A DNA stretch of 64,000 nt from Thermococcus sibiricus MM 739 (lineage in GTDB: Archaea; Methanobacteriota_B; Thermococci; Thermococcales; Thermococcaceae). The notes beneath the pieces were generated by a model that searched no databases, was not told the DNA's origin, and saw only the letters and a program-made list of their open reading frames with translations. The position numbers were made by a program, and so were the translations under genes. Numbering within the stretch: position 1 is the stretch's first letter; each line of letters begins with the position of its first letter. The DNA lies in NCBI RefSeq assembly GCF_000022545.1, contig NC_012883.1:62001-126000 (forward strand), read 5' to 3'. Of this stretch, positions 478 to 58,456 are shown in pieces.

Positions 478-1482
478 ATGCTGACATATGCTCAGGCTGG
501 TGTCGATGATGAAAAAACTCAAAAAGCTTTGAAAAGTATTATTTCTCTTGCAAAGGCTACCTTTGAGTTTAGAAGAGGAAAAATTGGCGAACCAAAAGAA
601 GATATTGGTCATTACGCTGCGCTTATGGACTTTGGAAGCTTTTATCTTGCAATGACGACGGATGGGGTTGGAACCAAAACCTTGGTTGCAGAGGCAGTTG
701 GAAAATACGACAACATTGGGGTAGATATGATAGCAATGAATGTAAACGATTTGATATGCTTGGGAGCTGAACCCGTAGCTCTGGTAGATTATCTTGCTGT
801 TAGAGAGCCAGATGAAGAGGTTTTTCAGGAAATAGCAAAGGGTATCTATGAGGGTGCAAAACAGTCGGGGATAGCCATAGTTGGTGGTGAAACCGCGGTC
901 TTACCAGAGCTCGTGAACGGCTTTGACCTTGCCGGAACGGCCATTGGGGTTGTTGAGAAAGATAAAGTGGTGACTGGAAAGGATATAAATCCGGGGGATG
1001 CAGTAATAGGGATATCAAGCTCGGGGATTCACTCCAACGGTTTAACCCTTGCAAGAAAGCTTTTAATTCCCAAATATGGACTTGAATACGAGTTTGAAGG
1101 CAAAAAGCTCTGGGAGCACTTGCTTGAGCCAACAAGGATTTATGTGAAGGCAGTCCTTGAGCTGCTCAAAAGGGTGGAGGTTCATGGTTTGGCACACATC
1201 ACCGGAGGGGGCCTGCTTAATCTAAAGCGGCTCACTAGCTATGGATTTTCCCTAGAAATGCCTCCAATAAGCGGGATTTTTAAGCTAATCCATGAGAACG
1301 GCGTGCCTTTAGATGAGATGTTTAAAGTATTCAATATGGGGGTTGGTTTTGTAGTCGTTGTGGATGAAAAAGACAAAGAAGATGCGCTTGAAACACTGAA
1401 CAAGCATTATCCAAGTTTTGAGATTGGAAAGGTTACAGAGGATAAGGGGATAATAGTTGATAATTATAGGGTAAGGCTTTAG
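478..1482 (+). CDS. purM: Phosphoribosylformylglycinamidine cyclo-ligase (AIR synthetase)
   Basis: PurM closes the imidazole ring, turning FGAM into AIR with ATP. The 334-residue protein starts [10 protein letters not shown] and shows the family signature TTDGVGTK near residue 60, [19 protein letters not shown] and [11 protein letters not shown] chose ATG 478 because GGTGAT at 468-473 precedes it. The frame is open further upstream to 418, but that part carries no family sequence and covers the promoter and operator. It diverges from purT and converges on purC, with T-rich sequence between the two stops. Confidence 0.95.
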
Positions 1483-1540
1483 TTCTTTTCTATAACTTCA
1501 TTTGGAACTAAAATATAAAAAACAGATTAAGAAAGGGGGT

Positions 1541-22081: not shown

Positions 22082-25000
22082 TTGAGCGAAGATGTTAATA
22101 AAATCAAAAAAGAGCGTTCATATGGTGAGGAATTGGATTTGGGAGTTGATTTTAAGTCTACTGAGGAAATTAATGTTCCTGAGAAGTTAATAGATCAAGT
22201 AATCGGACAAGAGCATGCTGTTGAAGTTATCAAAACTGCTGCAAAGCAGAAAAGACACGTATTGTTAATAGGCGAACCAGGAACAGGTAAGTCAATGCTT
22301 GGCCAAGCAATGGCAGAGCTATTGCCAACGGAGGATTTAGAGGATATTTTAGTTTTTCCAAATCCTGAAGACGAAAACATGCCTAAAATAAAGAGTGTTC
22401 CGGCATGTCAAGGAAAGCAGATAATTGAACGCTATAGGCAAAAAGCAAAAGAGCAAGAGAATATAAAGTCTTACATTTTGCTTTTTGTACTGTTTGTAGT
22501 TATGCTGGCAGTTCTAATGGATCGTTCAGCCCAAACACTGCTCTTTGGTGTTTTTGTCCTTATAGTATCATTAATGGCCCTTTCAAACATGAGACTCAGG
22601 GGCCAAGCCTTGGTACCGAAACTATTAATAGACAATTGTGGCAGGAGAAAAGCTCCATTTGTTGATGCAACGGGCGCACATGCTGGAGCTCTCCTTGGAG
22701 ACGTTAGACACGACCCGTTCCAGTGTTTTAGTGGTAAGGAGAGTATTATAATTGAAAAAGATGGTGAAAGAAGAGTAGTCACTTTGAAAGAGTTTGTTGA
22801 TAGCGCTCTTAAAGAACCATCGGGAGAAGGAGTAGATGGTGAGATTAACGTCATCTACAAGGACTTTAGAAATGATAAAGTTAAAATACTGACAAAGGAT
22901 GGCTTCGTGAAGCTCCTCTATGCCAACAGGAGGGAAGGAAAGCAAAATCTCAGAAGAATAGTGAACCTTGAGAAGGATTACTGGCTCACGGTAACGCCTG
23001 AGCACAAGGTGTACACGGCGGAAGGTCTCAAAGAAATGGATGAACTGACCAAAGATGACGAGATAATAAGAGTTCCCGTTATAATCCTTGACCGCTTTGA
23101 TGTAGCTCGTACATACAATGAGGAGAAGAAGCTCAAAGATTACTTCCGCTGGAAGGACTATTACGAGAAAACCGGCAATGGATATAAGAGGGTCGCTAAG
23201 GAGCTTGGAATTAAGGAGAGCACGCTCCGTTGGTGGACTCAAGGAGCCAAGCCAAAATCCCTGAAAATGGCCGAAGAACTCGAAAAACTTGGTCTCCTAC
23301 CACTGAAGAACGAGGATGAACGGCTCGAAGAGATAGCCAAAGTTATGGGCATCCTTTTCAGCGATGGGAATATTGACAAGAACCTTAACACTCTGAGCTT
23401 TGTGTCAAGTGAGAGGGAAGCTATCGAAAAATTCGTGAGAATCCTTGGCAACCTCTTTGGAGAATTTGAATATGAGATCAAGGAGAATCGTGAGGCTATG
23501 GGAGAGAGTATTCTCTTCAGGACGTGGGACAGGAGAGTCATAAGATTCTTCGTTGCCCTTGGTGCTCCCGTTGGTAACAAGACAATGGTTAAGCTTGAAC
23601 TTCCATGGTGGATTAAGCTTAAGCCGTCACTTTTCCTCGCCTTCATAGATGGTCTCTACAGCGGCGATGGCAGCGTACCAAGGTTCGCCCACTATAGGGA
23701 TGGTATCAAATTTAATGGAACGCTTGAAATAGCCCAGCTTACCGATGAGCTTGAAAAGAAGCTTCCATTTTTTGAGGAGATAGCATGGCATTTGGGCCTC
23801 TTTGGAATCGAGGCAAAGGTTAGGGTTGACAAAGCTGATGGTAAGTATAAGGTGAGGCTTATATTCTCGCAATCCATAGACAACGTGCTCAACTTCCTTG
23901 AATTCATCCAGATAAGTCTCTCCCCATCAAAGAGGGAGAGATTCCTCGGGGAAGTCGAGAAGTATATCAATGCCGTTCCCGATTCAAGTCTTGCAGAGAA
24001 GCTCAAAGAATTCAAGGAGCGCTTTGAGAGGATTAAGAAGGAAGAGAGAAGGAACTTCATTGAAAGCTCGGAAGAAGTGGAGGTTACCTACAACGTGACT
24101 ACAGAGACAGGGAATCTCCTTGCCAACGGCCTATTCGTCAAAAATTCCGGTGGTCTTGGAACTCCCGCCCACGAACGTGTTGAACCTGGAATGATTCATA
24201 GGGCCAACAAAGGGGTCCTTTTCATAGATGAGGTGGCAACCTTAAACATAAAGATGCAGCAAAACCTCCTTACAGCGATGCAGGAAAAGAAAATGCCTAT
24301 AACTGGACAAAGTGAGCTTTCAAGTGGTGCCATGGTAAGAACGGAACCAGTGCCATGTGATTTCGTCCTTGTGGCTGCTGGGAACTTGGATACTGTTGAT
24401 AAGATGCATCCTGCTTTACGTTCAAGGATAAGGGGCTATGGTTACGAAGTTTATATGAGAACTACGATGCCAGATACTATAGAAAACAGAAGGAAACTTG
24501 TTCGTTTTGTCGCTCAAGAGGTTGCGAAGGATGGCAAAATACCACATTTCACAAAAGATGCGGTTGAGGAGATAGTGAGGGAAGCTCAAAAGAGAGCTGG
24601 TAGGAAGGGTCACCTTACACTTCGCCTCAGAGACCTTGGTGGTATCATAAGAGCAGCAGGTGACATTTCTATCAGGGAAGGAGCAAAATACGTTACTAGA
24701 GAACATGTTTTCAAAGCTCTCCAGCTTGCAAAGCCTCTTGAAAAGCAATTGGCTGATTGGTATATTGAAAGAAAGAAGGAGTATCAAGTTATTAAAACCG
24801 AAGGTGGAGAGATAGGAAGGGTTAACGGCTTAGCAGTAATAAGTGAACAGAGTGGTATTGTACTTCCAATTGAAGGCATGGTTGCACCAGCAGCAAGTAA
24901 AGAAGAGGGCAAGATAATTGTAACTGGAAAACTTGGAGAGATCGCAAAGGAAGCTATTCAAAACGTCTCGGCCATAATAAAACGATACAAAGGAGAGGAT

Positions 25001-56499: not shown

Positions 56500-57012
56500 A
56501 TGAGACTATTAATATTTGATCTTGATAAGACATTATGGGATCATTATGATGCTTCTCAGCTAGTCCCTCCCTTTAGAACACACGGTACTGAATTAATAGA
56601 TGCCTTAGGAAATAAATTGAAACTCTTCGATGGAGTTGTGGAATTCCTAGATTGGGCAAAAGAAAGGTTTGTTCTTAGCATTGCGAGTTGGAATCTTGAA
56701 AAATTGGTGAGACCGATATTGGAAGAGTTTAATATCTGGCACTATTTTGTCTTTCCCAAAATAGAGAACCATCCAGATAAAGCGGACATGATAGTTAGAA
56801 CGCTTCAAGAATTAAAGAATTCTGGATATGAAATAGAGGAAGTGATTTATATTGATGATAGAACTCTCCATTTAGATAAAATTAAAAAGAGAATTCCTGA
56901 CATAAGATTTATTCAAATGTGGGTGGATGTAAAAAATTTTGAAGAACTTAGAGAGTATCTTATGAAGGAATTAGAGGTGAAAAAGGATGAAGCTCTTAGT
57001 GGTGAAAGATAA
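56500..57012 (+). CDS. HAD-superfamily phosphatase, MDP-1 type
   Basis: 170 residues. DLDKTLWDH at the N-terminus holds the nucleophile Asp; SIASWNLEKLVRPIL, the lysine in HPDKADMI and YIDDRTLHLDKI complete the HAD motifs. The pattern matches magnesium-dependent phosphatase-1 (acid phosphatase family), which acts on protein tyrosine or glycated-protein phosphates. The start follows TGGTGAT. Its 3' end overlaps the DUF366 gene by 26 bases. Confidence 0.85.
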   Translation: MRLLIFDLDKTLWDHYDASQLVPPFRTHGTELIDALGNKLKLFDGVVEFLDWAKERFVLSIASWNLEKLVRPILEEFNIWHYFVFPKIENHPDKADMIVRTLQELKNSGYEIEEVIYIDDRTLHLDKIKKRIPDIRFIQMWVDVKNFEELREYLMKELEVKKDEALSGER

Positions 57013-57553
57013 GAGAATTGATTACGATGGATCTGCAATAAAGAGTCACTGGGCATATAGAAACTTTGGGGTATTAGGAAACTCAATAGTGATATTCAGA
57101 GGACGTTGTGACATAAAAATCGAGGAAATGATTGATATTGAAGACCTTCGTCAGCAAAAGGAAATCAAAAGCGAGGATATGATACATTACATAATAGAAA
57201 TATTTGAGGTACCAAATGTGTTTCTTGCGTCAGTGCTCCAGAAACTCTTTATTGCAAAGCTAGGTGAGATTTTGGGAGAATATGATATAAAGACCTCAAG
57301 ATATGGTGATGACATTTACGTTGGTGACAAAAAGTTGAGTATTTCCATTGCTACAGTCTCACCAGTTAGCATTAAGATTCACATAGGAGTTAATGTTGAA
57401 GCAAAGGGAGTACCAATGGGAGTTAATGCCATTGGGTTAAAGGAACTTGGAATATTTGATATTGACCAATTTATGGAGCTAAGTGGGAAATTACTTGTGG
57501 AGGAATTTTTAAAGGCCAAAAAAGACAGTTTAAAAGTGAGATGGGTAGAATAA
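56987..57553 (+). CDS. DUF366-family protein
   Basis: 188 residues. YDGSAIKSHWAYRNFGVLGNSIVIFRG and ISIATVSPVSIKIHIGVNV are the DUF366 conserved core as I recall it; function unknown. No membrane segments. It starts within the end of the MDP-1 gene with GAGGTGAAAAAGG before ATG 56987, indicating coupled translation. Its stop abuts the stop of the convergent kinase-like gene exactly. Confidence 0.75.
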   Translation: MKLLVVKDKRIDYDGSAIKSHWAYRNFGVLGNSIVIFRGRCDIKIEEMIDIEDLRQQKEIKSEDMIHYIIEIFEVPNVFLASVLQKLFIAKLGEILGEYDIKTSRYGDDIYVGDKKLSISIATVSPVSIKIHIGVNVEAKGVPMGVNAIGLKELGIFDIDQFMELSGKLLVEEFLKAKKDSLKVRWVE

Positions 57554-58163
57554 TTAAATTAATGGTTTAATGAGTATGCCAACTAGAGGCACTGCAAGAT
57601 TATCATCCAAAAATCTCTGATATTCTGCAAGGGTTAGGATAATACTCCAACTTATTTTTGAAAGCCATGAGATTTCAGGGAAAATTAGGGCTACTATTAA
57701 TAATGCTGATAGGAAATACCCCAAGCTACCAGTCCAATGTTTTTTTTAATTTCACGTTATATCCATTTTTTCTGAAATAAACGAACCGGATTATACCTGT
57801 AACTCCATCACTTATTGCCATAACCAAAAGAATAGCTGTTGCATAGTTTTTAGAGAGAAAAAATACAACAAAAGCCGCTGAGAATGCAAAAAAGACTTCT
57901 CCATAGTTTGCATTGATCTGATACCACTTGAGACCGTCATTTTTGATGTGAAAAATTAGTTGCCCTAGGCCAAATAGAAACGCTGCTGGCGCGAATACCT
58001 CTCTGGGAATTTGACCAAGATAATATAGAAGGCCTGCAGGTACAATGCTGAAATGGATTATTTTTCTATTTATCCATACATAGTTCTCTCCTAAATATCT
58101 TGTAAAGTATATTGAGGCTAGGATCGGTGTAGTTGCTAAAAAAACTGCCATGGCTATATTCAT
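57554..58163 (-). pseudogene. Diacylglycerol/polyprenol kinase-like membrane protein, frameshifted in an A8 run
   Basis: ATG 58163 (preceded by GGGGGGT) opens a polytopic protein with NRKIIHFSIVPAGLLYY and AISDGVTGIIRFV, the motifs of the CTP-dependent SEC59/DGK1 family. It stops after residue 145 at 57726, just past eight consecutive A (57747-57740 on the minus strand). Dropping one A continues the frame as KKHWTGSLGYFLSALLI for about 60 more residues to a natural stop at 57554, with helices in place. The gene is therefore split by one base: a real mutation, a base-call error, or polymerase slippage. Confidence 0.75.
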
Positions 58164-58216: not shown

Positions 58217-58456
58217 ATGTTCAGCGGGCAAAACGTTTCTGGAATAATTAATGGAAAGCTCACAGGTTTGTTTTTTCTGTTTGCCTTCGGGTATAATTTT
58301 GTTAGAGTTCATGCTCTGTTAGGTGGGCCTCCAGGTGATGTTACTGAATGGCTTCGGGAGATGGGGACACAATTGTCCCACCAGCATCTTATGTTCTTAG
58401 GAGAACTTGAGGGCCAAAACTTAAAAATGATTTTTGTAAGTCTAGTTGGGGGATGA
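58217..58456 (+). CDS. 79-codon ORF or structured leader of lysS (uncertain)
   Basis: ATG 58217 opens 79 codons ending three bases before the lysS ATG. The product has one hydrophobic stretch (KLTGLFFLFAFGYNFV) and no family I know. No convincing ribosome binding site precedes it. The region also holds a perfect hairpin GGGACA-CAAT-TGTCCC (58364-58379) and is GC-richer than other intergenic DNA, so it may be a structured 5' leader and not a gene. Confidence 0.3.
   Translation: MFSGQNVSGIINGKLTGLFFLFAFGYNFVRVHALLGGPPGDVTEWLREMGTQLSHQHLMFLGELEGQNLKMIFVSLVGG

Follow-up and report, generated by a model that had tools for sequence, protein, structure and literature searches.

The window analysed here is a stretch of 64,000 nucleotides of Thermococcus sibiricus MM 739, bases 62001-126000 of its single contig of 1,845,800 bases. 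On the minus strand, from 58163 to 57554, it holds a conserved archaeal membrane-protein gene split by one extra base in a run of eight A (Table 1). The first frame opens at the ATG at 58163 and closes at a stop at 57726, the final four of its 145 residues being off-frame; joined, the two parts (141 + 62 codons) would make a protein of about 203 residues. Taking one base from the run brings the joint open length to 206 codons, compared to 148 in the longest intact frame. Adding one base (A9) gives just 158 codons, because that frame meets a stop 13-14 codons past the run. No further stop was found in either part. The stop of the split gene (57554) adjoins that of the convergent DUF366 gene (57553), and the sister genome is arranged alike.

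Table 1. Position of the features discussed. Coordinates are those of the window unless another sequence is named.
Feature	Position	Strand	Basis
A8 run (T8 on the + strand), where the frames part	57740..57747	-	sequence read; A7 in sister genome
First part of split gene, ATG to premature stop, 145 aa (141 in family frame)	57726..58163	-	relatives match residues 1-141
Second part of split gene, 62 aa, other frame, conserved KHWxGS and DDNLxVP, natural stop	57554..57742	-	relatives
Convergent neighbour, DUF366 protein	56987..57553	+	PF04017, E 2.9e-65
Nucleotidyltransferase-domain gene, split at A8	genome 24445; L050 4946-4953		sister A7, 97% identical
Metallo-beta-lactamase-fold gene, one extra A at A8	genome 198142; L052 5143-5150		comparison with relatives
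IS240-type element, 233-aa transposase	L217 (G077:C3:247800-250000), 722-1500		flanks 100% identical to intact G078 copy

The first part of the gene was matched in 78 of the 94 genomes of the family (T. sibiricus counted in), and the second part was present in 12 of the 13 genomes searched for it. An open frame of at least 200 residues runs past query residue 141, the split point, in 72 of the 78 genomes with a match. The six genomes without it are T. sibiricus and five others (G077, G061, G042, G006 and G060), where the frame is broken or shortened by other means. Of 32 loci read across the split site, every one proved to be a single ORF of 199-204 residues. As three of these loci are duplicates of others, the set covers 29 other genomes. 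Two of these have A7, the sister (L004/L008, 96% amino acid identity over the first part) and L009; the remaining 27 have A6 or shorter, the run being interrupted or shorter among relatives. Identity to the closest relative is 96% over residues 1-141 and 94% over the 62-residue second part, which argues that the joined reading is not due to chance. Frames, run and relatives thus agree with a preliminary description of the locus, which had seen one gene split by one base in the A8 run, brought back to a family-sized protein by removal of one A, and ending on a natural stop that abuts the stop of the neighbour.

That description had also proposed a slippage-controlled gene, and a comparison of run length in relatives as one way to check it. 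This further proposal was not supported by the comparison: a split of the T. sibiricus type, at A8, was seen in no other genome, either among the 78 with a match or among the 29 others compared at the run itself. Since the relatives read there are unbroken at the run, a run-length sequencing error or a fresh mutation is preferred to a slippage switch. A programmed or regulated switch, yielding a short and a long product by slippage or by ribosomal frameshifting, is suggested by geometry only, as the run lies where two frames meet whose joint product is the family protein. Against it stand the frames open past the site in 72 of the 78 genomes, the run length of at most A7 in all 29 other genomes read, and the RNA past the run, which is less structured than its shuffles (z +1.35 to +1.78). 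Moreover, a ribosomal -1 shift at the run would enter the third frame and stop 13-14 codons on, whereas a +1 shift would be needed. Neither a stimulatory structure in the RNA past the run nor a conserved shift heptamer in the runs of relatives was found. Conserved programmed frameshifting was rejected because the split was seen in no other genome, and structure-stimulated shifting because no structure follows the run. As the same extra A is also found in two other genes (see below), we regard a switch of this kind as highly improbable.

Among 23 relatives, residues R33, K34 and H37 and the stretches NYGEV, SDG, KHWxGS and DDNLxVP vary little or not at all. The last two stretches sit past the split, so that the truncated protein would be without them. 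The gene had been labelled kinase-like in the preliminary description, and two of its traits resemble PfPolK, a CTP-dependent prenol/dolichol kinase, as presented in PMC10849223. The residues R33-K34-x-x-H37 are spaced as PfPolK Arg29, Lys30 and His33, three residues alone being weak evidence, and an AlphaFold2 model made from three sequences has eight helices like the PfPolK model, this being a poor model (mean pLDDT 59.6). Family-library searches with the 23 full-length relatives yielded nothing convincing, and no match was found in Pfam, NCBIfam or PDB sequences, although this archaeal branch may lack a model in those libraries. A family-library search gave no hit for the first part and one unrelated weak hit only for the second, and a PDB fold search with the poor model returned no match at E ≤0.001. 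A CDP-DAG synthetase chain (E 1.3, TM 0.25) was considered as a fold match and discarded as evidence. With no profile or structure match to the CTP-dependent prenol/dolichol kinase family, the kinase label has no library or fold support, and "kinase-like" remains a resemblance.

Compared with the sister, the first part shows 17 silent and 7 replacement differences (dN/dS 0.10), and the second part 7 silent and 5 replacement differences (dN/dS 0.20, with low power as this part is short). When the changes were polarised with L009, the T. sibiricus lineage had accumulated 11 silent and 3 replacement changes in part one, and 2 and 1 in part two. Silent changes outnumber replacement changes, which argues that the gene is not long dead, and neither relaxed constraint nor further disabling changes, as a pseudogene would have, were found in either part. 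The idea that both parts are under selection therefore stands for the first part and weakly for the second, whose signal, taken alone, is weak. Likewise, the view that the gene is not dead can be kept in the form "not long dead", and it is possibly a very recent pseudogene.

We then considered the other long A/T runs of the genome. After merging of overlapping hits, 45 separate runs of at least 8 A or T were counted, 33 of them inside ORFs of at least 100 residues (30 A and 3 T on the coding strand). Relatives confirmed one extra A breaking a gene at three of the 45: the target, the nucleotidyltransferase-domain gene at 24445 and the metallo-beta-lactamase-fold gene at 198142. The sister copy of the latter (L136), situated at a contig end, is itself broken upstream, which suggests that this gene may be weakly constrained. 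A relative could be aligned across 21 of the 45 runs. In addition to the three confirmed breaks, one run, at 1226594 and outside any long frame, is one base shorter in the relative, three show larger or messy gaps, and 14 have no net change (four with A8 in the relative too, ten with the run broken by a substitution). The opposite gap, of +1, was found at none of the 21. A scan of run positions based on frame geometry flagged five A8 runs, and a looser scan the A9 run at 641838 as well; geometry alone is weak, as many shorter runs were flagged too, also in the control genomes G035 and G076. Two of the five A8 runs were rejected as split genes: at 128386, the alignment to relatives shows no net change in length and the gene ends at the same place, and at 1580812, across which no relative aligned, one frame ends and the next gene begins. 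Setting apart the split genes and the gene-end runs, 27 of the 33 ORF-internal runs are left. One apparently intact ORF of 271 residues (L084 3459-3981, genome 1597959-1598481) carries three separate A8 runs; in the sister all three are broken, each by a substitution.

Runs of this length are strongly avoided in coding sequence of the related genome G076. In a sample of it (L109-L128), 4 coding A runs of eight or more were seen for 56.2 expected, i.e. about fourteen times fewer, and no T run for 17.6 expected, after codon shuffling that preserves amino acids and codon usage, not codon context. The drop is mild for A7 (79 seen, 112.6 expected), so that a sharp step separates seven from eight. 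The T. sibiricus stretches used beside this sample lay between A8 runs and are uninformative on runs of eight. This avoidance is consistent with a cost of slipping, during transcription or replication, that sets in at this length, and it suggests that the A8 run may be prone to slip. As given, the run has the eight or more bases taken as the length for slippage in PMC3711429, which holds only if the base call is right.

If the eighth A is real, occasional slippage of RNA polymerase to A7 could supply some full-length protein, and the frameshift would be tolerated. Baranov et al. 2005 (PMC1088944) proposed that bacterial genes broken at runs of nine bases may be rescued in this way, with an argument from run avoidance of a similar kind, and as with their genes the product of the slipped transcript would here match a single-ORF relative. 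In addition, both parts of the gene have retained their reading frames. However, that survey dealt with runs of nine and, for function, needed the split in two non-identical sequences, whereas here a run of eight is split once, and no second sequence with the identical split was found among the 78 genomes with a match. The rescue also needs a one-base deletion (or +2), since A9 stops 13-14 codons on, while transcripts of E. coli and Buchnera slip at runs mainly by insertion (PMC5574713). Avoidance of long runs is expected from mutation as well, and the 27 other ORF-internal runs indicate that many genes that look intact tolerate A8. The only positive evidence for rescue is that this run is present and that runs of its kind are avoided, and we hold rescue to be improbable. 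Less probable still is its extension to all three confirmed genes, in which partial rescue would make them slippage-tolerated frameshifts in an archaeon whose genus otherwise avoids coding runs of eight or more. In the literature on slippage in archaea consulted here, which reports ribosomal frameshifting (magnesium chelatase of Methanococcus and Methanocaldococcus) and DNA strand slippage, no measured case of archaeal transcriptional slippage was found. Only if rescue were shown would the locus bear on the fidelity of archaeal transcription.

To place the break among other differences, 243,081 bases were aligned to the sister draft. The T. sibiricus stretches had been picked to take in every A8 run, so A8 is over-represented among the breaks counted. 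At least five gene-internal breaks of T. sibiricus were found in these bases, two of them at A8 runs, the other three at a short run or at no run; one of the five (221518) came from a listing of positions that fall within ORFs in both genomes. Of 15 isolated disruptions flagged in T. sibiricus, the target and seven others were inspected; the sister draft has 18 flagged breaks of its own. At a short A run near position 3024 of L196 (genome 1663024), a one-base difference turns what is in the sister an 899-residue CARDB-domain protein into frames of 403 and 508 codons.

Changes of run length relative to the sister were then tallied. Among A/T runs of four, 3 of 1119 inside genes and 9 of 290 outside had changed; for runs of five to seven, the figures were 5 of 599 and 6 of 223, in a tally that counted the gene-internal run at 24445 as outside genes. 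Changes being rarer inside genes than outside, real mutations contribute to these differences. For runs of at least six (shorter length), where numbers are small, 4 of 152 inside and 1 of 54 outside had changed; the lone "outside" case is 24445, which is inside a gene, and one of the "inside" cases (27178) appears to be upstream of a start. At the longest runs, error and mutation are not separated by these rates.

Protein-level checks on partial samples, too small to be decisive, gave 4 frame changes for 63 G035 ORFs on T. sibiricus and 0 for 75 in the reverse direction, and 2 for 93 G076 ORFs and 3 for 94 in reverse. The target contributes one change to the 4 and one to the 2. Shadow frames of the rRNA region make up the other of the 2 G076 changes and two of the 3 in reverse. 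The other three G035 changes comprise two that, by eye, resemble neighbouring gene ends, and one at a 22-base difference.

We take the MM 739 genome to have been sequenced by 454, in 2009. In assemblies made by 454, artificial frameshifts favour A/T and long runs (PMC3277595), and the present case resembles such errors: a one-base difference in a long A/T run, in a gene whose relatives are intact. A survey of 1106 prokaryotic genomes (PMC3711429) expects sequencing errors, and not mutations, to lie behind frameshift genes that are isolated (unclustered) and whose protein match extends across the shift. The two further T. sibiricus genes with one extra A at A8, and the lack of the opposite gap at any of the 21 aligned runs, also speak for an error. 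Given the A7 run of the sister, the intact coding pattern and this literature on 454 errors, the likeliest single reading is that the eighth A is a run-length over-call of the assembly and that the true length is A7, as in the sister; we give this a probability of about one half. The split gene would then code for an ordinary membrane protein, in about 203 codons and with no special decoding, and we infer that sequencing, not the cell, is the source of the difference. The observation of a split is thus true and its cause most likely ordinary, an over-call in the first place, otherwise a fresh frameshift. An over-call would mean that an intact gene should be annotated here and that the genes at 24445 and 198142 merit checking as well. 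Against an over-call, many of the run-length differences from the sister are real mutations under selection, and some T. sibiricus gene breaks lie away from long runs.

The fate of the gene in relatives, which makes a real loss plausible, also counts against an over-call. No match was found in 16 of the 94 genomes, or in 9 of the 74 that are at least 90% complete and at most 5% contaminated. The G077 copy holds an element with an IS240-type transposase (Table 1) and a 9-base duplication, and is otherwise identical to the G078 copy. The G006 and G060 copies are decayed, the G042 copy is damaged, and in G061 the match begins only at about residue 51. With an IS inside one copy, decay in others and some genomes lacking a match, this membrane-protein gene is dispensable in the family. 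A genuine and recent replication-slippage mutation from A7 to A8 would truncate the protein ahead of its conserved C-terminal stretches, the gene being lost or on its way to loss in this strain. The sister carries the A7 run from which A8 would arise, and real run-length mutations do happen in this lineage. However, as neither part has suffered other damage and silent changes exceed replacements, such a mutation would have to be very recent, and we find it rather unlikely. If the eighth A is real, T. sibiricus would join several other members of the family that have independently lost a dispensable membrane protein.

Just upstream of the split gene, a small ORF (58217-58456, + strand) matches 33 places in G077 with its residues 18-58, one of them being the IS inside the G077 copy of the split gene. 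The ORF is similar to the C-terminus of an IS transposase and looks like an IS remnant, although it has no Pfam hit itself.
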